From Candidatus Bathyanammoxibius amoris (GTDB taxonomy: Bacteria > Planctomycetota > Brocadiia > Brocadiales > Bathyanammoxibiaceae): 64,000 nucleotides of DNA. The translations under genes and the position numbers were made by a program. Where the stretch lies: NCBI GenBank assembly GCA_024451685.1, contig JAMXCW010000003.1:1-64000 (forward strand), written 5' to 3'. Positions 8,510 through 64,000 of the stretch are shown here, one piece after another. The notes beneath the pieces were generated by a model. It was not told the origin of the DNA, searched no databases, and worked only from the letters and a program-made list of their open reading frames with translations. Position 1 is the stretch's first letter, and the number at the start of each line of letters is the position of its first letter.

Positions 8510-9615
8510 ATAAACCGCGGATTAGTCCTGGTTACGGCTTTACTACCGGCACGTGCGCCGCGGGGGCGGCACGGGCGGCGGCGCTGGGGCTGACCACGGG
8601 TTCCGTGCCCGGCAGTGTGGAAGTGGTTACCCCTTCAGGTGTAGTCGCAAGGCTGGAGGTGCTGGAAGAAGAATTTAGACCGGGAGAGTTTGTCCGGTGT
8701 GCCGTCAGGAAAGACGCGGGAGATGACCCTGACGTTACCCACGGGTGCCTTATAGTCGCCAGGGTAGAACAATGTCAGGAAGATGGTGTCGTGATAAACG
8801 GTGGCGATGGTGTGGGCAGGGTAACCAAACCCGGGCTCCGGATGCCTCCGGGAGAAGCGGCCATAAACCCTGTACCGAGAGAGATGATAAGGGCGTCGGT
8901 AAGTGAGTTCATTCCGGAAGGTATGGGCCTCAGCGTTACCATTTCCGTACCGGGCGGGGAGGGGATAGCGGAAAAGACGTTTAATCCCAGGCTGGGCATT
9001 ATAGGGGGTATCTCCATAATAGGCACAACGGGCATTGTACGTCCAATGTCACAGGAGAGTTTCAAGACTTCCCTTGTATGTGCCCTGGATGTGGCCGGGG
9101 CTATGGGTTACGAGACGGTCGTACTCGTGCCCGGGAACCTGGGGGAAAAGGCGTTTCAAAAGACGTTCAAGGTGGCTCCCGAACAGGTCGTGCAGATTGG
9201 CAATTACCTGGGGTTTATGCTCATCGAGGCAAGGAAGAGGAAATTCCGGAGGATAATACTTGCGGGCCATCCCGGCAAACTTGCCAAATTCATCCGCGGC
9301 GACCTGGATACGCACAGCATGAAGTCGCCGCCGGCCATGGACGCCGTCATCAAAATTCTTGAGGAAAATGGTCTGGAGAAGTCTATTATTGAGGTTGTCA
9401 AGGACTCTCCCACCGTAGAGGGCATAATCCAGCAGTTAAAAAAATGTGATAAACTCTTTATGATGGAGCATGTTGCAAATATAATTGAAGAGAAGGCGAG
9501 AGACCTTCTTGGCCCGGGTGTGGAGACGGGGGCGGTGCTCTTCGACATGCAGATGAGACTTACAGCTATTTCGAAAGGGGCGGGGGATTGGCAAAAAAGC
9601 CTGCAAACAACGTAG
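8506..9615 (+). CDS. cbiD: Cobalt-precorrin-5B C1-methyltransferase (CbiD), apparent CTG start
   Basis: Methylates C1 of the corrin ring in the anaerobic route. The conserved CbiD N-terminus PGYGFTTGTCAAGAA is encoded from about 8521, upstream of the first in-frame ATG/GTG/TTG region, so a start near 8605 would delete it. The only plausible start codon before it is CTG at 8506, which overlaps the cbiXC stop (CTGA) and is preceded by GGGAGG (8493-8498) at 7 bases. Later family blocks present: GVGRVTKPGL, NPVPREMI, LNPRLGIIGG-like (FNPRLGIIGGISIIGTTG) and the GHPGKLAKF segment. About 369 aa, as usual. Function is firm; the CUG start is inferred. Confidence 0.92.
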   Translation: MNKPRISPGYGFTTGTCAAGAARAAALGLTTGSVPGSVEVVTPSGVVARLEVLEEEFRPGEFVRCAVRKDAGDDPDVTHGCLIVARVEQCQEDGVVINGGDGVGRVTKPGLRMPPGEAAINPVPREMIRASVSEFIPEGMGLSVTISVPGGEGIAEKTFNPRLGIIGGISIIGTTGIVRPMSQESFKTSLVCALDVAGAMGYETVVLVPGNLGEKAFQKTFKVAPEQVVQIGNYLGFMLIEARKRKFRRIILAGHPGKLAKFIRGDLDTHSMKSPPAMDAVIKILEENGLEKSIIEVVKDSPTVEGIIQQLKKCDKLFMMEHVANIIEEKARDLLGPGVETGAVLFDMQMRLTAISKGAGDWQKSLQTT

Positions 9616-10241
9616 CCATAATAGGCTGTGGTCCCGGCAGCATAAGCTATATGACGGTGGGGGCCCTCAAGCGCATCAAGGAGGCGGACGTGGTTGTGGG
9701 CAGCCGGAGACTCTTAAACCTGTTCCCAGAGGTGAGGGTCGAAAAACTCGTCCTTGGCAGAAATTACAGGGTCCTGCTGGGTAAGATAGAAAGACTCAGC
9801 GCCAGAAAGAAGGTTGCCGTGCTTGTCAGCGGTGACCCCGGCTTCTTTAGTTATGCGAAGCTGGTTGTTAACAGACTGGGAAAAGAACATTGCGATATAA
9901 TACCCGGGATAAGCTCCGTTCAGCTTGCCTTCGCCTCAATAAGGCAGCACTGGAGCGATGCCCGTTTCATAAGCCTTCATGGCCGTAAGACGGAATTGAA
10001 TAGCCTGGTAGAGGCCGTCAAGGCACATGACAAAGTGGCCGTCCTTAACGACACTGCAATGAGCCCGAAGATTGTATGCCATGCCCTGAAGAGGGGCGGT
10101 GTAAAAGACAAAAAGGTCTATTTGTGTGAAAACCTTTCGCTGGGAAACGAAAAGGTTAAAGAGTACGACCTCTCATCCCTCAGCAGGGCAAATGCAGACG
10201 GTATAAACGTGATGATTTTTGTCTCAGAAGGCTGCGCTTGA
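9588..10241 (+). CDS. cbiE: Cobalt-precorrin-7 C5-methyltransferase (CbiE)
   Basis: SAM-dependent tetrapyrrole methylase acting at C5. It has the family glycine motif VAIIGCGPGS at the N-terminus, LVSGDPGFFSYA (the SGDPG substrate/SAM loop) and PGISSVQLAFA. At 217 aa it is a stand-alone CbiE without a fused CbiT decarboxylase domain; no cbiT is seen anywhere in the window. Start TTG 9588 lies inside the end of cbiD (28-base overlap) and follows a GGGGCGGGGG run. Confidence 0.92.
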   Translation: MAKKPANNVAIIGCGPGSISYMTVGALKRIKEADVVVGSRRLLNLFPEVRVEKLVLGRNYRVLLGKIERLSARKKVAVLVSGDPGFFSYAKLVVNRLGKEHCDIIPGISSVQLAFASIRQHWSDARFISLHGRKTELNSLVEAVKAHDKVAVLNDTAMSPKIVCHALKRGGVKDKKVYLCENLSLGNEKVKEYDLSSLSRANADGINVMIFVSEGCA

Positions 10242-10244
10242 TCT

Positions 10245-11018
10245 ATGTCCTCCCCCACGCTAGGTAATTTCTACGGCATCGGTATCGGCCCCGGAGACCC
10301 GGAGTTGCTCACCCTCAAGGCCCTGCGCGTCCTCAAGGAGATAGACGTGGTGTTCGTCCCCAAGGCGGGCATCAAAGAGGAGAGTATGGCGCTGGAGATC
10401 GTACAGCCGATAATAAACGGTAAAAAAGTGGTGGAAAAGGTCTTTCCCATGATAAAGGATGCGGATAAGCTGCAGGAGTTCTGGCTTGACGCCGCCGGGG
10501 CGATTAGGGACGAGTTGTCCAAGGGAAGGAACGTGGCCTTTCTTACGATAGGCGACGCGCTGACCTTCAGCACGTATGTATATCTACTGCGGTGCCTTAG
10601 GGAGATGATCCCTGAGGACAACATCCACACCATACCGGGTATCACGTCATTTAACGCCGCGGCAAGCCTTGTGAACCTGCCCCTCGCCCAGAGAGGCGAA
10701 AAAATCGCCGTCATACCTGTGTCTGACGACGTGGAGGAATTGAGACCCGTCTTTAAGGACTTCGACACCGTAGTCCTCCTAAAAGTGGCGAAGAGGCTGG
10801 ACAAGGTAATAACGCTCCTTGAGGAGACGGGCCTTGCCGGGACGTCCATATTCGCCTCGCACGTGGGGCTTGCGAATGAGTACGTTTCACGCGACGTCAG
10901 CACGCTAAAGGGCAGCGGCAAGGGCTATATGTCCGTAATAATCGTCAAGACACACCGGAAGCATAGCCACCGTGAAAATACAGGTTCTACAAGAGCTGCG
11001 AAAGGCAATGGTGACTGA
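10245..11018 (+). CDS. cbiL: Cobalt-precorrin-2 C20-methyltransferase (CbiL)
   Basis: Adds the methyl group at C20 of cobalt-precorrin-2. The N-terminus FYGIGIGPGDPELLTLKALRVL is the classic CobI/CbiL signature (quoted in part), followed by FLTIGDALTFSTYVYL and PGITSFNAAAS. The 257-aa length fits. Starts 3 bases after cbiE and ends inside the next gene. The last 15-20 residues are basic and low in complexity. Confidence 0.93.
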   Translation: MSSPTLGNFYGIGIGPGDPELLTLKALRVLKEIDVVFVPKAGIKEESMALEIVQPIINGKKVVEKVFPMIKDADKLQEFWLDAAGAIRDELSKGRNVAFLTIGDALTFSTYVYLLRCLREMIPEDNIHTIPGITSFNAAASLVNLPLAQRGEKIAVIPVSDDVEELRPVFKDFDTVVLLKVAKRLDKVITLLEETGLAGTSIFASHVGLANEYVSRDVSTLKGSGKGYMSVIIVKTHRKHSHRENTGSTRAAKGNGD

Positions 11019-11964
11019 TTCCATCGAAACAGAAGACAGGTTTATCGGTTCCGTACTGGGGGTGGCCATTGGCGATGCCATGGGGATGCCCTTCGAAGGC
11101 TGGTCCCCTGACAAGATAAGGGAGCACTGGAAGGATAAGGTCTTCCTGTCGGCATCACCGCGCAGGGGGCTGGGACCCGGCCAGTATACAGACGACACGC
11201 ACATGACCATCTGCCACCTGAAGAGCCTTATAGATTCGGGTGGGTTAGAGCCGGAGGACGCCGCGCGAAAATTCCTTGAGTGGTTTGATTCGGGTGACCT
11301 CAGGGGAATAGGCGCGGCTACCGCGTTGTCAATGAAAAGACTGAAACAGGGCCGCTCCTGGCAGAAAAGCGGGGCAACGGGGGAGTACGCCGCGGGCAAC
11401 GGCGGTGCCATGAGAATCGCCCCGGTGGGGCTGTTTTACTATAACGATATATCCGCACTGAAAGAGTCTGTCCGGCAGGCAGTAGTGATAACACATGATA
11501 ACACGGAGGCCGTGGCCGGCGCGACGGCGGTGGCCTATATCGTGGCAAGGGCGGCCAAAGGGGACCTTGACCTTGACCTGGACACCCTTATAACTGACAC
11601 AAGGGAATTTATCGGGGACTCAACAGTATCAGAAAACCTGGCCAGGGCGGAGGCACTCTTAAAGGATAATGCCACTAACGAAAAGGCGCTGCAGGTGCTG
11701 GGCACGTCCGGCTATGTTGTGGAGACCGTGGCAAGCGCGGTGTTTTGTTTCCTGTCCTCACCCCGCGATTTCAAGAGCACAGTGGTTAATGCCGTCCTGG
11801 GTGGACTGGACACCGACACAACTGCCGCCGTTGCCGGCAGCATGAGCGGGGCCTTTAACGGAAAGGACGGGATCCCCCGGGACTGGGTCGATGGTGTTGA
11901 GGACGACGAGCGGCTTACTTCTATGGCCAGGAAACTCTATAAGGTCTCCAGAAAAAACCAGTGA
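11008..11964 (+). CDS. ADP-ribosylglycohydrolase (DraG-like) inside the B12 operon
   Basis: DraG-family hydrolases remove ADP-ribose from proteins or small molecules using two Mg ions. Visible family features are GSVLGVAIGDAMGMPFEG at the N-terminus, QYTDDTHMT (the metal-binding TDDT block), GNGGAMRIAPVG in the middle and LGGLDTDTTAAVAG (the C-terminal metal-binding D-T-D-T) near the end. ATG at 11008 overlaps cbiL by 11 bases (a GTG at 10972 is a less likely start). It has no known role in B12 synthesis. Its tight overlap with cbiL means it is co-transcribed, so it may act on a cobalamin-linked nucleotide or simply be a passenger. Confidence 0.88.
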   Translation: MVTDSIETEDRFIGSVLGVAIGDAMGMPFEGWSPDKIREHWKDKVFLSASPRRGLGPGQYTDDTHMTICHLKSLIDSGGLEPEDAARKFLEWFDSGDLRGIGAATALSMKRLKQGRSWQKSGATGEYAAGNGGAMRIAPVGLFYYNDISALKESVRQAVVITHDNTEAVAGATAVAYIVARAAKGDLDLDLDTLITDTREFIGDSTVSENLARAEALLKDNATNEKALQVLGTSGYVVETVASAVFCFLSSPRDFKSTVVNAVLGGLDTDTTAAVAGSMSGAFNGKDGIPRDWVDGVEDDERLTSMARKLYKVSRKNQ

Positions 11965-55684: not shown

Positions 55685-57196
55685 TCAATTCGCGGTGGCT
55701 TTTGCCTCGGCCACTGTGGCAGTGGCCTCCGCCATGTCAACAACAGGGATTACGGGCGCCTTGTCCCCCAACAGTTCCACCGCCAGCCATTGAGGCGCGC
55801 TCCTGTAATGAAGCACTGCCTTTACCTGTAAGGGCAGTTTTGCATCACTGGGCGCCAGGAAGGCGTATTTCTCAACCATCTCTCCTTTCGGGGGGATTCG
55901 GTAGTCGGAGATGATGTGGTCGGCCTCCCAGACCTTGTAGGTGGGTTTTCCGTCCTTGTTGCCGAAGACGGTGTGATATAGAACCGCGTCTTCATCAATC
56001 TTGCCGTTCTCGTCCAGCTTACCGGAGTGATAGACGTTTTTTCCGCCGGCGTCCGTCACAGCCACCTCAAGCCATACCTGCCGCACCTCTGTGAGCCCGG
56101 TAGGGATGTAGTGGCCCGCACCCACGTTCTTCACCATGACCCGGAGTTTCAACAGCTCGCCCGGCTTTATGTCGGAGGGTGGTAAAATTTCCACTGTGGC
56201 GGCGTTTTTGAGCCTGTCCTCTGCCATCTTCTGTCTCTCCGGGTCCTGGGCGGGCGGGCCGAGGATGAGGCTGGTACCGCCGACGTAATAGTGTGTCCAT
56301 ATATGCGGCCTCTCTATACCCCCCACGTGCTTTGCTGCGGCAAACCCCGGGTTGTCCGGCCTCTCGGTAGCACCCGTGGCGGGCACCCCCGGTCTCTGCC
56401 GCATGTGGCAGTCCTGACAGTGCACGGCAGTCTCAGGGTCGCCTGTATTGTAGGGACCGAGCCGCCACTCCGTGTAGGTCTGTTCCACGGCCAGCCTGGT
56501 TCCCGCGTGAGAGACGTCGTGGCATGAGCCGCAGAATTCCGACCGTGTATGCAGCTCGGAAAATTCCGTCTTATGCTGTGTCTCGGGGCAGTTCTTGAAG
56601 GGTCCGCGCTTTGTCCCGAAGTCCATCTTCGCCGCGTCTCCGGGGTCAACTATAAAAGGGGCGTTGCCTATGCCGGTGGTGGCCTTTATGGAATGGCAGA
56701 AGTCGCAAAATATGTTTTCCTTACTTGCCTCAGCCGGCATTGCCGGTTGGCCGGTCTTCCACTCCCCGGAGGTGAAACCCACAGGATTGTGACAACGGAC
56801 ACAGGAGTCCAATGCCGCCTTCTCCATCTCGCCCTTGGCCTCCTTGAGGCCCTTTTGGTACAGGGCCTGAAACAGGGGGTCATACCACGCGTATGCGTGT
56901 GTTGAACCCTTCCACTGCGCGAATATGTCCGTGTGACATGTCCCGCATATCATTGGCACAAAGAACCTGCTCCCCGGCATTTCCCCCCGGCCTGTGATGG
57001 AACCGTCAGTAAGATTAGCCGGACGGTCACGTTTGGGCAGCTGCCAGCTCGGCGACCATTCCTGCGCGCAGAGTTTTGCCGTGAGACCCGCTAACACAAG
57101 CCCCGCAAGCACAAAATAAAGAACAGGTCTTCCCTTTATCTCAAACAGATTTCTAAGACGCCGCATAGTTTGTTGACCCTCACGTTTGTTCTTCAT
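55685..57196 (-). CDS. Five-heme cytochrome c (c554-like)
   Basis: About 503 aa. N-terminal signal anchor (about 23-45), then five CxxCH heme motifs: CGTCH, CVRCH, CDFCH, CGSCH and CQDCH. The order and the YKCGTCH-like opening resemble cytochrome c554/multiheme families that pass electrons in nitrogen metabolism. The C-terminal third (about 350-490) has no heme and an Ig-like region (VKNVGAGHYIPTG) plus an Ala/Thr/Glu tail. ATG 57196 chosen; TTG 57205 and ATG 57166 (preceded by GAGGG) are alternatives. The reaction is unknown; the protein faces the periplasm or an internal compartment lumen. Confidence 0.9.
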   Translation of the reverse strand: MKNKREGQQTMRRLRNLFEIKGRPVLYFVLAGLVLAGLTAKLCAQEWSPSWQLPKRDRPANLTDGSITGRGEMPGSRFFVPMICGTCHTDIFAQWKGSTHAYAWYDPLFQALYQKGLKEAKGEMEKAALDSCVRCHNPVGFTSGEWKTGQPAMPAEASKENIFCDFCHSIKATTGIGNAPFIVDPGDAAKMDFGTKRGPFKNCPETQHKTEFSELHTRSEFCGSCHDVSHAGTRLAVEQTYTEWRLGPYNTGDPETAVHCQDCHMRQRPGVPATGATERPDNPGFAAAKHVGGIERPHIWTHYYVGGTSLILGPPAQDPERQKMAEDRLKNAATVEILPPSDIKPGELLKLRVMVKNVGAGHYIPTGLTEVRQVWLEVAVTDAGGKNVYHSGKLDENGKIDEDAVLYHTVFGNKDGKPTYKVWEADHIISDYRIPPKGEMVEKYAFLAPSDAKLPLQVKAVLHYRSAPQWLAVELLGDKAPVIPVVDMAEATATVAEAKATAN

Positions 57197-57319
57197 AAGC
57201 TGCAATCTGTGATAGACCCTAAAGAATCATTTTTATAACAAACTGCATGTAATTGCAACTTTTAATGATAACGAGGTTTCCGGGGAAGTAGCAAAAGAAT
57301 ACATAACGACGCCACGGAT

Positions 57320-57654: not shown

Positions 57655-60237
57655 ATGAGTAATTCGATTTCGATAAAGGTACTGGGTACGGAAACCGTCT
57701 TACACGCACCCGCGTTCTACCGCACGCAGACGGGTTCAAACGGGGACGCGGTGCTTATAGACCCGGAGGGGCCGAACTGGATGGTGACAGGCGCGGCCGG
57801 GGCAGAGATTTTGGCGTCGTTTGACGGAACGAAGACGTTTGGTCAGGTCGTCGGCGAATATTCCGCCGGAAACGGCGTGGACATGGCGAAGGCGTGGCTT
57901 GACGTCCACACACTTACAAGAGACGCCCTCCGGCACGGATTCCTGTCCGGCTCCGTGTTTGACGTGACATCGTATGGGGGCAGGTATGCCCACCTTTCTT
58001 TAGACCGGCTGAGAGAGCTGTGGATACATACCAACAATTCATGCAATCTTTCGTGCACCCACTGCCTGGTCGATTCCTCACCCTCAGGGGATAAGGGACT
58101 TTCAACCGGGACGATAATGCGCGTCATGGACGAGGCCCGTGAACTTGGCGTCAGACAATTCTATTTCACCGGAGGTGAACCCTTTCTAAGACAGGACATT
58201 TTTGAACTCATTGAACACGTACTTGGACATGACGATTCCACGCTCACCATACTCACAAACGGGACGGTACTCGATGAGAGGAAACTGAAAAGACTCCAAA
58301 AATTCCCGGTCTCCCGCCTGCGTTTGCAGGTCAGTCTCGACGGCTCATGCCCGGAGATAAACGACCCCATCAGGGGCGAGGGCAGTTTTCACAGGATTAT
58401 TGATAATATCAAGCGGACGGTTGAGAGCGGCCTGAGTATCACGGTCTCGACGGTAATAGCGCCGAGCAACGCGGAGGACGTCTGGCAGGTCACAAAGCTG
58501 CTGGCGGAGCTGGGCGTGCGCAATCACCACCTGCTGTTCATGCATCACAGGGGACGGGTGTTGGAAGACATGGATACTTCCCGACCGGTACCCGCATCAA
58601 AACTCATCGAATCCATAAGAAAGGCCAAAAAGGTTGCACTTGAGACCGGGATAATAATTGATAACCTGTCTTTTATTCGAATGCGAGTGGATTCGCCGGC
58701 CTTTACCCGTTACGACCTGAGTAACGCATGCTGGGATAGTCTCTGCCTGTACTCCGATGGAGAGGTGTATCCGTCCGCCGCCCTTGCGGGTTACCGTGGC
58801 CTGTCATGTGGAGATATAAACGAAAATACCTTAAAGGAGATATGGAAAAAATCCCTCATTTGTAGGCAGTTCAGGCAGGCTACCCTGCGTGATAAACCCG
58901 TCTGCGCAGAATGCCACCTGAGATTTATATGCGGGGGCGGCGACATAGAACATTCATATCTCTACTCCGGCCGGAACGGGGACAGAGACAGCCTTTCCAT
59001 TTCTCTTTCAAAAATGGACCCCTACTGTGAGCTGTACAAGGCGCTGATACTCGATACCATGCACGACCTTTCAGACGCAGCCAGGGCGACGGCTGTTAAT
59101 GACAAGTCCGGCTTTAACGCGCCTGTTGTGTTCAGGGGTATGGGGGAAGGCGCGGCCTCGTGCAATGAAGGCGGGTGCGAGGGAAATGATAATGATGATG
59201 GTAACAGTGGCAGCGGCGGGGGCAGCGGCAAAAAATTTCAGGTGAGGACGCTCAGTTCAAATTGCGTGCTTTCTATAGGCCCTGACGCGCCAAGACATGC
59301 GGTGCGCGAGTTCTACGCGCGTGCCGCTACGGACCCGGACGAGGGGCTCTGCTGTGCCCAGGTTTTTTCCGCCGATGACGTGGCTCATATACCGAAGGGG
59401 GTACTTGAACGGGCCTATGGATGCGGAGGCCCGGTCGGCGTGGCAGGGATAGCCGGGGGGGAGAAGGTCCTGGACCTCGGTTCAGGGGCCGGCATAGACT
59501 GCTTCATGGCGGCAAAACAGGTTGGGCGGAGCGGAAAGGTAATCGGCGTGGACATGACAGACGAGATGCTGGATACCGCCAACAGTTTCAAGGCTGAAGT
59601 GGCAAGGAATCTGGGTTATGACGTGATAGAGTTCAGGAAGGGGTTTTTGGAAGAAATCCCCGTCGAGTCAGGGTACGTGGACGTAATACTCTCGAACTGT
59701 GTGATAAACCTCTCGCCGGATAAAAAGCAGGTCTTCCGCGAGATGTGGAGGGTGCTCAGGGACCATGGCCGGATTGTGGTGTCGGACATAGTTTGCGACA
59801 GGAAAATCCCCGAACGCCTGCGCGCAGACAGGCTGTTGTGGGGACAGTGTCTTAGCGGGGCCCTTACGGAGGAAGAATTTCTGTGCTTTCTCGAACAGGC
59901 CGGTTTCTATGGCACCCAGATACTTTCCAAGACCTTTTGGAAGGAGGTGGAGGGTTACAGGTTCTTCTCTGTGACGGCAAGGGGCTACAAATACGAAAAG
60001 CGGGCGGAGTGCGCGTATCAGGGCCATAGGGCCGTTTACCTCGGCCCCCAGAAGGCGGTCATAGATGAAGAGGGCCATCTCTTTCCCAGGGGTGAGGAGG
60101 TAGCGGTCTGCACGGATACCGCGGAGAAACTCAGGCAGCCCCCGTACTCAGGCCGTTTCGTTATTATTGATCCAACGGACAATGCCCCCCTCGATTTTGT
60201 CTGCGAACAAGATTCGGATAGCAAGTGCTGTGGATAA
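57655..60237 (+). CDS. PqqD-like - radical SAM/SPASM - ArsM-like methyltransferase fusion
   Basis: 860 aa from ATG 57655. Residues about 10-100 look like a PqqD-type peptide-recognition domain ([30 protein letters not shown]). Residues about 120-330 are radical [11 protein letters not shown] (Cys130, 134, 137), TGGEPFLR and SLDG. A SPASM region with several Cys ([24 protein letters not shown]) follows to about 460. After a Gly/Asn/Asp/Ser linker (about 495-535), a SAM methyltransferase reads [28 protein letters not shown] and [14 protein letters not shown], with Cys at CCAQ and YGCGG, and ends SKCCG. The last part closely resembles ArsM and its C-terminal extension ([20 protein letters not shown]). 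I infer organoarsenical (arsenosugar-like) chemistry; a peptide-modifying role is the alternative because of the PqqD-like domain. Confidence 0.82.
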
Positions 60238-61312
60238 AAAAGACACAAAAATCCCTTACGTGTGTATTCTGGGCCTATGTGCGGCATTTCTAGGCGGCCT
60301 GCAGTTGTATCAGGCCGTGGCCCGGGGCGTCGAGGTAGACCCCATGGAGATACTTTCAGTCTTGCCTGAAGACGCTATTAGGTCGATAGATAACCCCAAA
60401 TTCGTCTCTGGTGAAAAGGCAGATAAGCAGATGAGAGAAGACGAGCCGGTAATCGGCCTGAAGATGAACAGTGAGATGAAGGCGTATCCCCTCTACGTCT
60501 TGAGTGCTCACGAGATAGTAAATGATGTTATTGCAGAGAAACATATTGCCGTCACCTGGTGACCGCTGTGCTTTACGGGTGTGGTCTACATCCGTGACAG
60601 AGTAAATGGTGAACCCCTTGAGTTTGGTGTCTCTGGCAAACTCTGGATGAATGCACTGCTCATGTACGACCGGCAGACCCACTCCCTGTGGAGCCATATT
60701 ACAGGCGAGGCCATCGATGGCACATTAAAAGGAGAGGTCTTGAAATCATTGCCATCTACACATACCACCTGGAGGGAGTGGAAACAGGCAAATCCCTCAA
60801 CGGTAGTGTTGTCAAAAGGCGGCTTTTTGGGGAGAAAATATGATATCGACCCCTACCAGGACTATTATGCCGATGATAAGAGGGTCGGAATGGTACCCCT
60901 GCGGCATCCAGATGAGAGAATACACCCTAAGGAACACGTGGTGGGGGTCAAGATTGGTCCAGCGGCCAGGGCCTATCCATTTTCATACCTGGATAAATCC
61001 CCAGTGGTCAACGATGAGGTATATGACAGGAGGCTTGTAGTAGTCTTTTCGAGGAAAAGCAAGACAGCCACCGTCTTCGATAGAACACTAGGAGAAGAAA
61101 TCCTAACCTTCAAAGAGAGGGGAAATTCAGCTTCAGGCGAGTTGTTAATTGCGGATAACGAAACGAGCAGCCTATGGCATGGCCTTACGGGGGAGGCGGT
61201 AGAGGGTGAACTCAAGGGTCAAAGGCTGGAGCGGATACCCAATATGGTATCTTTCTGGTTTGCGTGGAAGGACTATTTCCCAAATACAACAATATTTCAG
61301 GATGAGAGATAG
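60230..61312 (+). CDS. DUF3179 (seleno)protein with in-frame UGA
   Basis: The frame opened at GTG 60230 meets TGA at 60560-60562 and then continues unbroken to 61312. Around the stop it reads VTW-U-PLCFTGVV, while DUF3179 members read VTYCPLCGTG, so UGA replaces the first Cys of C-P-L-C (residue 111 of 360). A SECIS hairpin follows (60560-60595). The N-terminus has one membrane segment (about 9-28). The protein has two DUF3179-like halves (about 75-195 and 230-355): ...KAYPLYVLSAHEIVND and ...ARAYPFSYLDKSPVVND align, but the second half lacks the U/C motif. Overlaps the rSAM gene by 8 bases (GTGGATAA), so both are one operon. Function of the family is unknown; U-x-x-C suggests redox. Confidence 0.88.
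60560..60595 (+). promoter_or_regulatory. UGA codon plus bacterial SECIS element
   Basis: TGA at 60560-60562. The stem ACGGGTGT (60575-60582) pairs with ACATCCGT (60588-60595), eight pairs with one G-T, around the loop GGTCT (60583-60587). The loop is 20 bases after the UGA; in E. coli fdhF the same GGUCU loop is 18 bases after UGA. Stem length, loop sequence and spacing all agree with SelB recognition. Confidence 0.9.
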
Positions 61313-61315
61313 GCG

Positions 61316-61939
61316 ATGGCGATAGGAAATGTCCTTATGATATTTGTGAAATACCCGGAGCCCGGAAAGGTGAAAACCCGCCTTGCCGGGACACTCGGCA
61401 AGGAAGCGGCCGCCCGCCTGTACAGGCGCATGGCCGGGGATATTATCCATCGCCTCAAAGGGTGCGGACAATATGAGACGGTTATATTCTTTGACCCGCC
61501 CGAAAGGGCCTCAGACGTGCGGGACTGGCTGGGCGACGACCAATGCTATATTCAACAGTCGGGAGGAGATTTGGGTGAGAGGCTATCTAACGCCTTTCGT
61601 ACCGTCTTCAACTCTGGTGCCGGACGGGCCGTAGTGGTCGGCACTGACTGCCCGGACGTCACACAGGACATTGTTACCAGAGCCCTTCAGCATCTTCGGG
61701 AAAAAGACGTGGTAATCGGCCCGGCCGAAGACGGCGGATATTACCTGCTGGGGCTTTCGAGTCATGCACCCGGAACATTCGACTCGATAGACTGGAGTAC
61801 CGGCAGGGTCTTTCAACAAACAACGGAAAAGATAAAACAACAGGGCCTGTCGTTCGTAACCCTGGAGCCGCTGAAGGACCTGGATGAGTTCTCGGACATA
61901 TCCCCAGCTCATCTTCATCTGTTGAAACAAAGGACGTAA
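61316..61939 (+). CDS. TIGR04282-type (arsenosugar-associated) glycosyltransferase, DUF2064
   Basis: 207 aa. GT-A-like opening VLMIFVKYPEPGKVKTRLAG, then GGDLGERLSNAF, VVVGTDCPDVT (metal DxD-like) and IGPAEDGGYYLLGL, all matching the DUF2064/TIGR04282 family that is often found in arsenosugar clusters. Three bases after the selenoprotein gene, so same operon. It could transfer sugar to the methylated product of the rSAM-ArsM fusion; alternative is a lipid- or nucleotide-sugar role. Confidence 0.85.
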   Translation: MAIGNVLMIFVKYPEPGKVKTRLAGTLGKEAAARLYRRMAGDIIHRLKGCGQYETVIFFDPPERASDVRDWLGDDQCYIQQSGGDLGERLSNAFRTVFNSGAGRAVVVGTDCPDVTQDIVTRALQHLREKDVVIGPAEDGGYYLLGLSSHAPGTFDSIDWSTGRVFQQTTEKIKQQGLSFVTLEPLKDLDEFSDISPAHLHLLKQRT

Positions 61940-61954
61940 GAGAGAAAAACCTTG

Positions 61955-62794
61955 ATGGTAATTCTCCTTAGAAATATTGTTGCCGCGCTGCTTTTTACGT
62001 CCTGTTGCTATGGTGAACCAGGTAGTTCAGGGGGCACTATATCCATCTCCGGTTCCACAACCTGCCTCCCGGTTGTCAGTAGGGCCGCCGAGGAGTTTAT
62101 GCAAAAACACCCACAGGTAACGATAACGGTATCTCCTGGTGGCTCTGGGGTTGGCGTAAGCGCTTTGGCCAAGGGGGCAGTCGACATCGGTATGACATCC
62201 AGAGACATTAGTGAAAAGGAGCAAAGAGAATACCGGGAAGTAGACTTCTTTCTCACACCCTTTGCCCGTGATGCGGTGGTCCCGGTAGTATCCTCAGAGG
62301 TCTATGAGGCGGGGATAACCCATCTATCCGTATCCCAAATCGGGGATATTTACAGTGGACAGTTAAAGAACTGGAAAGACCTTGGAGGCCCTGACAGGGG
62401 AATCCTGGTAGTGGACAAGGAGTCTGATAGGGGGACCAGACACGTCTTTATGCAGGCCATCTTTGGCGATAAATATGCAGCCCCAGGAGCTACTATAGTA
62501 ACAGGCCCTAACGATGATATGCAGATGGCCGTTGCCACTAGCGGTGCGGCAATCGGGTTTCTTTCCCACGCATGGATAAACGCCAACGTAAGAGGTCTGG
62601 GAATCAAAGTGGGGGAAGAGGTAATCTATCCCACAACTGCCGATGTCAGAGGCGGACATTTCCCCATATCCCGAAATCTCTCCTTTGTTACAGATGGCCC
62701 GCCAAAGGGAATGGCCAAAGAATTCATGGACTTTGTTCTAAGCCCTAAGGGGTTTAGGATAATCGTCGGTGCGAATCTTGTACCTCTAGAATAA
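61955..62794 (+). CDS. PstS-like phosphate (or arsenate) binding lipoprotein
   Basis: 279 aa. The signal peptide ends in a lipobox (LLFTSC, Cys16 or 17). The mature part is a PBP-like phosphate-binding protein: ISGSTTCLPVVSRAAEEFM, SPGGSGVGVSALAKGAVDIGMTSR (ligand-binding loop), KESDRGTRHVF and AAIGFLSHAW. Phosphate-type contacts present; specificity for arsenate versus phosphate cannot be read. No ABC permease or ATPase nearby. 13-16 bases after the glycosyltransferase, so likely last gene of that operon. Confidence 0.85.
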   Translation: MVILLRNIVAALLFTSCCYGEPGSSGGTISISGSTTCLPVVSRAAEEFMQKHPQVTITVSPGGSGVGVSALAKGAVDIGMTSRDISEKEQREYREVDFFLTPFARDAVVPVVSSEVYEAGITHLSVSQIGDIYSGQLKNWKDLGGPDRGILVVDKESDRGTRHVFMQAIFGDKYAAPGATIVTGPNDDMQMAVATSGAAIGFLSHAWINANVRGLGIKVGEEVIYPTTADVRGGHFPISRNLSFVTDGPPKGMAKEFMDFVLSPKGFRIIVGANLVPLE

Positions 62795-63544: not shown

Positions 63545-64000
63545 ATGAAGCTAAAACCTTTATTTATTCCAATTTTACTTCTGGGTTTTTTCTTTCTTTT
63601 TGTCCTATCCTGTGCTAAACGTGAGGAGCCAAGAGCGGTTTTTGTTGCACCACGTGCCCCAGCAGCGGACGGAAAGGCACTGTGGAGTTACATCACAAAA
63701 GACTCGCCTTACACTGAATATCAGTTCTGGCCCGGCAAGACGGCACTTTATAAGGGTACTATGCCCCATGGGGCCCTGTTAAACCTCTATGTAAATAACA
63801 AGGCTCTTAGGGCAATAAATAGGGCCATAAAGAGGAAGGCTGGAGTCATAGCCATGCCCAATGGCTCCATCATAGTCAAAGAGAACTACAAGCCTGACAA
63901 GACCCTTGCCGCTATTACTGTGATGTACAAGGTGGCCGGCTACAATCCTGAGGCCAGCAACTGGTTCTGGGCCAAATACTCCCCGAAGGGTGAGATAGCG
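63545..64000 (+). CDS. Cytochrome P460-family lipoprotein (3' end beyond window)
   Basis: First 152 codons. The signal (IPILLLGFFFLFVLSC) ends in a lipobox (Cys21). The rest reads YTEYQFWPGKTALYKG, PHGALLNLYVN, MPNGSIIVKENY, TVMYKVAGYNPEASNWFWAKYSP, all typical of cytochrome P460 proteins that handle hydroxylamine or NO. The C-x-x-C-H heme motif and crosslinking Lys lie in the part beyond the edge. AGGAGA precedes ATG 63545 by 6 bases. Confidence 0.9.
   Translation, partial: MKLKPLFIPILLLGFFFLFVLSCAKREEPRAVFVAPRAPAADGKALWSYITKDSPYTEYQFWPGKTALYKGTMPHGALLNLYVNNKALRAINRAIKRKAGVIAMPNGSIIVKENYKPDKTLAAITVMYKVAGYNPEASNWFWAKYSPKGEIA

Follow-up and report, generated by a model that had tools for sequence, protein, structure and literature searches.

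A predicted DUF3179 selenoprotein gene beside a radical SAM–ArsM-like fusion gene in Candidatus Bathyanammoxibius amoris

The window analyzed here is a stretch of 64,000 nt from Candidatus Bathyanammoxibius amoris (contig JAMXCW010000003.1, positions 1 to 64,000). It carries a DUF3179 gene, the only DUF3179 match in this genome (G000), which is flanked on the same strand by the genes listed in Table 1. The frame 60230-61312 contains a single internal stop, the TGA at 60560-60562, followed by 249 open codons (250 in the original prediction), and in a Pfam profile search the read-through frame matched PF11376 with 316 bits (gathering cut-off, 27 bits) over profile positions 2-292 of 292. The TGA stands at the first Cys position of the family motif C-P-L-C, as had been predicted, and the sequence around residue 111 is W-U-P-L-C. 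In the same-genus relative L095, the start of the DUF3179 gene differs from the corresponding position by no more than a few codons. Two other long in-frame stretches behind a TGA (window 9588-10241 and 10972-11964) were rejected as candidates, being neighboring genes in a shared frame.

Table 1. Features of the DUF3179 locus, in window coordinates
Feature	Coordinates	Strand	Basis
Radical SAM/SPASM–ArsM-like methyltransferase fusion, 868 aa	57631..60237	+	Conserved neighbor of DUF3179 in the order
Predicted DUF3179 selenoprotein gene	60230..61312	+	360 aa including Sec; GTG start, TAG stop 61310-61312; PF11376 read-through match
N-terminal hydrophobic helix, probable signal/anchor	60230..60325	+	Helix 10-30 in the model and sequence inspection
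Repeat 1, residues 37-205, Sec-bearing, Rieske-like modelled fold	60338..60844	+	hhalign, model, PDB structure matches
His94 codon, 17 residues ahead of Sec111	60509..60511	+	His in ≥90% of aligned homologs
Predicted Sec codon, in-frame UGA, residue 111	60560..60562	+	TGA at the same codon in relatives, TGC/TGT in others
Predicted bacterial-type SECIS hairpin	60575..60595	+	8 pairs (one G-U); loop GGUCU 60583-60587; folding z -3.66; pairing above synonymous null in Sec homologues only
Repeat 2, residues 206-360, without Cys/Sec	60845..61309	+	hhalign repeat 1 versus repeat 2, probability 99.8
TIGR04282 'arsenosugar biosynthesis glycosyltransferase' family gene	61316..61939	+	213.8 bits, cut-off 134
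PstS-like substrate-binding protein gene	61952..62794	+	Profile match; same gene order in L095 (same genus)

The fusion gene ends at 60237 and shares its last 8 bases with the DUF3179 gene, an arrangement that fits an operon with coupled translation. Its ArsM-type part scored 240 bits against NF008823, under the cut-off of 263 for that family, and no match to ArsS (TIGR04167) was found in G000. On the minus strand of the window, a multihaem cytochrome gene (55685-57205) gave a weak match to the ExtKL (seleno)protein family (62 bits, cut-off 250). Cytochrome P460 family genes were also observed near DUF3179 in G000, where two lie in tandem (window 63545-64000 and L018:4136-4657), and in G206 (L048:271-852).

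The absence of selB or selC had been named in the original prediction as an argument against selenocysteine; the search gave the opposite result, and all four sel genes were found in G000. The selA (576.6 bits) and selB (377.2 bits) genes are adjacent on contig 2, while selD (358.7 bits) is located ∼16 kb downstream of the DUF3179 gene, and a tRNA-Sec (selC) with the anticodon tca was detected on the same contig. TGA also terminates 18 of the 46 long ORFs within the window, so the in-frame TGA is not accounted for by a reassigned code. When homologs were aligned at this codon, TGA was found at the same motif position in ∼40 homologs of the phylum and also in Chloroflexota; all four DUF3179-bearing genomes of the window's family have TGA at the codon equivalent to 60560. 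The suspicion of an assembly error or a pseudogene was thereby answered, as close relatives retain the TGA and more distant ones, beside the same neighbor gene, have TGC or TGT. A DUF3179 protein with two Sec residues, considered for G102, was rejected because the second TGA is a real stop. Two further genes of G000 have an in-frame TGA of their own: the selD frame (L018:16844-17890; G000:C3, about 76843-77889), with the motif C-G-G-U, is probably a selenoprotein gene itself, and a second, stand-alone ArsM-like gene (L211, about 1807-2620; G000:C9), with the motif U-I-C-G, resembles the known UxxG arsenite methyltransferase selenoproteins.

The hairpin downstream of the TGA was recovered with the GGUCU loop and eight-pair stem originally described, but the 20 nt then given as its spacing is the distance from the TGA to the loop; the stem itself begins 12 nt after the TGA. 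Numbered with the T of TGA as 1, the stem consists of pairs 16-36 to 23-29 enclosing the loop. The proposed folding check gave an energy of -12.7 kcal/mol for 60572-60600 (z -3.66), and only 1.2% of 2000 synonymous recodings folded as well. Stem pairing was also scored across homologs at six positions, taking the better of two stem registers, against a null of the same proteins with synonymous codons. Among the Sec homologs (n = 39), 91.9% of positions were paired versus 67.5% in the null (s.d. 2.2; maximum of 500 replicates, 73.5%), whereas the Cys homologs (n = 15) gave 60.0% versus 59.1%. The hairpin is thus maintained beyond the demand of the protein sequence, and solely in genes with TGA at this codon. 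In one clade with the motif T-Y-U-V-(I/V)-C-S-S-G (L055-L058, L062-L065, L067 and L068), the SECIS stem lies one codon away from its place in the remaining Sec forms. The sel set, the TGA in relatives and the hairpin kept in Sec forms only together argue that DUF3179 is a real selenoprotein gene and not an error or a pseudogene. UGA 60560 is predicted from the sequence, with near certainty, to be read as selenocysteine by SelB and Sec-tRNA(UCA), guided by the hairpin just downstream.

Position 111 was Cys or Sec in 47 of 47 aligned homologs, an invariance that is partly due to selection because the homologs were picked by the Cys/Sec motif or a family match. In the same alignment Trp154, Gly164 and Leu171 were invariant, and Asp48, Pro56, Tyr86, His94, Asn98, Gly136, Asp147, Gly168, Pro189 and Trp346 were conserved in at least 90%. 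The residue at +3 from Sec/Cys was Cys at 68 of 87 sites and Ala at the other 19, in Sec and Cys forms alike. The dithiol reading of the U-x-x-C motif is therefore weakened, and UxxC dithiol chemistry was set aside as a general mechanism; a dithiol is not obligatory, and the center would be formed by the Sec/Cys, probably together with His94. At least five changes between Sec and Cys were counted on a tree of 87 sequences. On this tree the window's clade groups most closely with the Chloroflexota DUF3179 selenoproteins L098-L108 (support 87) and less closely with the Cys forms found in its own order; a transfer between phyla might have occurred.

The neighborhood was followed across 62 genomes of the order. 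The radical SAM–ArsM protein, or part of it, was matched in 39 genomes, and DUF3179 scored above its cut-off in 19. In 14 of these 19, the match coordinates place DUF3179 on the strand of the fusion and within ∼3.3 kb of it, both as Sec forms (G000, G294, G206) and as Cys forms (G267, G301, G303, G304, G325, G326, G328, G329, G330, G334, G335). The fusion thus adjoins DUF3179 as first noted, and the context, then unfamiliar for this family, is conserved and not a local oddity. Of the remaining five genomes, G138 has DUF3179 at a contig edge without a fusion match, the two genes fall on separate contigs in G322, G332 and G300, and in G302 they are ∼17 kb apart. Gene order varies, with the fusion first in G000 and DUF3179 first in G206, and the pairing is kept. 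Monophyly of the order's DUF3179 genes was not rejected (p-AU 0.129), which leaves no basis for claiming that they were recruited to the fusion independently.

Outside the order, G057 has the arrangement arsM - DUF3179 - arsS - DUF547 - membrane protein - TIGR04282/TIGR04283 fusion, and in G056 arsS adjoins a Sec-DUF3179 gene. DUF3179 and ArsS occur together in 53 of 294 phylum genomes (odds ratio 3.9, kinship ignored). Pairs within 15 kb were found in six genomes versus ∼0.6 expected, a rough figure that assumes uniform placement in 5-Mb genomes. In ∼780 kb around the DUF3179 genes of other families, an ArsM match was present at three loci only. Within the 20 genomes of the order in the phylum sample, ArsS (seven) and the fusion (seven) were never found together, which suggests that the fusion replaces ArsS in the order, a pattern confounded by kinship.

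The hydrophobic N-terminal helix, at residues 10-30 in the model, suggests that the DUF3179 protein is probably exported or anchored, and export through this helix is considered very likely. The explanation as a whole up to this step, a Sec-containing DUF3179 gene whose product would be exported, was assigned a probability of roughly 80%. Beyond it, the Sec-DUF3179 protein is tentatively proposed to bind or reduce compounds on which the neighboring radical SAM–ArsM enzyme and the arsenosugar-type glycosyltransferase act, either trivalent arsenicals or some other metal(loid). Our best guess is an exported protein that serves organoarsenical metabolism through a selenol/His site, either in redox reactions or in metalloid binding. 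An arsenic role is opposed by the compartments, as an exported protein would be separated from cytoplasmic arsenic enzymes. It is also quite conceivable that the selenoprotein is an exported redox protein or thiol peroxidase of a general kind, without a specific link to arsenic, whose neighbors only share its regulation. This would agree with the wide distribution of DUF3179 (106 of 294 phylum genomes), mostly away from arsenic genes, and with the stress-like context in G206 and G138 (L048:1567-5190, L049:860-4144), where DUF3179 comes after a set of genes encoding a sigma factor, an anti-sigma factor with a zinc finger and a protein with a heavy-metal-associated domain. It accords less well with a pairing to the fusion that survives both gene-order change and Sec/Cys exchange, or with the position of DUF3179 between arsM and arsS in G057.

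The two structural models were confident, with pLDDT values of 93.6 and 94.2. By hhalign, the protein consists of two homologous repeats, the first of which carries the Sec; the second repeat has lost the Cys/Sec. When the model of repeat 1 was compared with 350,542 PDB chains, the top 16 matches were all Rieske proteins, with probabilities up to 0.95; the best E value was 0.17, none falling below 0.1, and the TM-score on the target reached 0.62, for a lower-ranked Rieske protein. No Rieske similarity was found in sequence (hhalign probability 0.4-0.5%), and a profile search of solved structures with DUF3179 returned zero matches. The distance of 17 residues from His94 to Sec111 equals that from the box-I His to the box-II Cys in the Rieske protein of the relative L131, as counted by hand. 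Repeat 1 would form a Rieske-like beta fold with altered cluster ligands, retaining a box-I-type His (His94) and a box-II-type Cys (here Sec111). The DUF3179 protein may operate in a Rieske-like fold; by ligands or sequence it is not a Rieske member.

The working center would be, by a modest preference, a selenolate/His site and not a classical [2Fe-2S] cluster. A Rieske-type electron carrier in which Sec directly coordinates an Fe-S cluster or a mononuclear metal is unlikely: the modelled fold and the shared His-to-Sec/Cys spacing speak for it, but the four normal ligands of the boxes C-x-H and C-x-x-H are not in place in DUF3179, which lacks the box-I Cys and has Cys or Ala instead of the box-II His, and the lack of sequence similarity to Rieske proteins also counts against it. 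More speculative, and rather doubtful, is the scenario in which DUF3179 was derived from a Rieske protein by rebuilding the Fe-S site into a selenolate/thiolate-His center and became, in Planctomycetota, an exported protein dedicated to organoarsenical metabolism and working in a pair with a radical SAM–ArsM fusion that replaces separate ArsM and ArsS. The least credible account, that TGA 60560 really ends the protein, arose by sequencing error or marks a pseudogene, draws on the ordinary use of TGA as a terminator in the window and is set against retention of the codon in genus, family, phylum and Chloroflexota with full-length homology beyond it, the complete sel set, and a hairpin conserved in TGA forms only.

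The occurrence of DUF3179 in both Cys and Sec forms, as originally stated, agrees with PMC9312934 and PMC13188914, which already list Sec-DUF3179 with UxxC/T among selenoproteins; PMC9312934 credits the 2007 Olavius algarvensis symbiont paper (Zhang and Gladyshev 2007). The protein described here belongs to the same family (PF11376) and has the same U-x-x-C motif as the listed symbiont selenoproteins, but comes from another phylum. The radical SAM–ArsM neighborhood, the +3 Ala forms and the Rieske-like model are unmentioned in the available parts of these two papers, and no published function, fold or arsenic link for DUF3179 was found in a literature that was mainly the freely accessible one. 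The new lead offered here is the repeated siting of DUF3179 beside organoarsenical-building genes, Sec-DUF3179 itself being already listed. The arsenic-enzyme neighborhood, the Sec/Cys exchange within one order and the His-Sec Rieske-like model together offer a testable hypothesis for DUF3179. Compared with Rieske [2Fe-2S] domains (NirD, PetC3, carbazole dioxygenase), the protein is alike in modelled topology and in H-x17-C spacing, but two of the four ligands are not conserved and the sequences are dissimilar. The arsinothricin pair ArsL/ArsM (PMC8552651) likewise combines a radical SAM enzyme with ArsM on arsenic, but as separate genes and with no DUF3179 described, whereas one fused protein is encoded here. 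In Synechocystis, the first arsenosugar steps are carried out by ArsM and the radical SAM enzyme ArsS (reported in PMC8552651). The window shares with the arsenosugar genes arsM/arsS (TIGR04167) and their TIGR04282 and TIGR04283 glycosyltransferases an ArsM-like methyltransferase, a radical SAM enzyme and a TIGR04282 gene, and the arsenosugar cluster in G057 contains DUF3179; it differs in that its radical SAM part, a SPASM-type one, is joined to the ArsM part in a single protein, in a genome without an ArsS match. The fused radical SAM–ArsM enzyme may represent an alternative route into organoarsenical biosynthesis.
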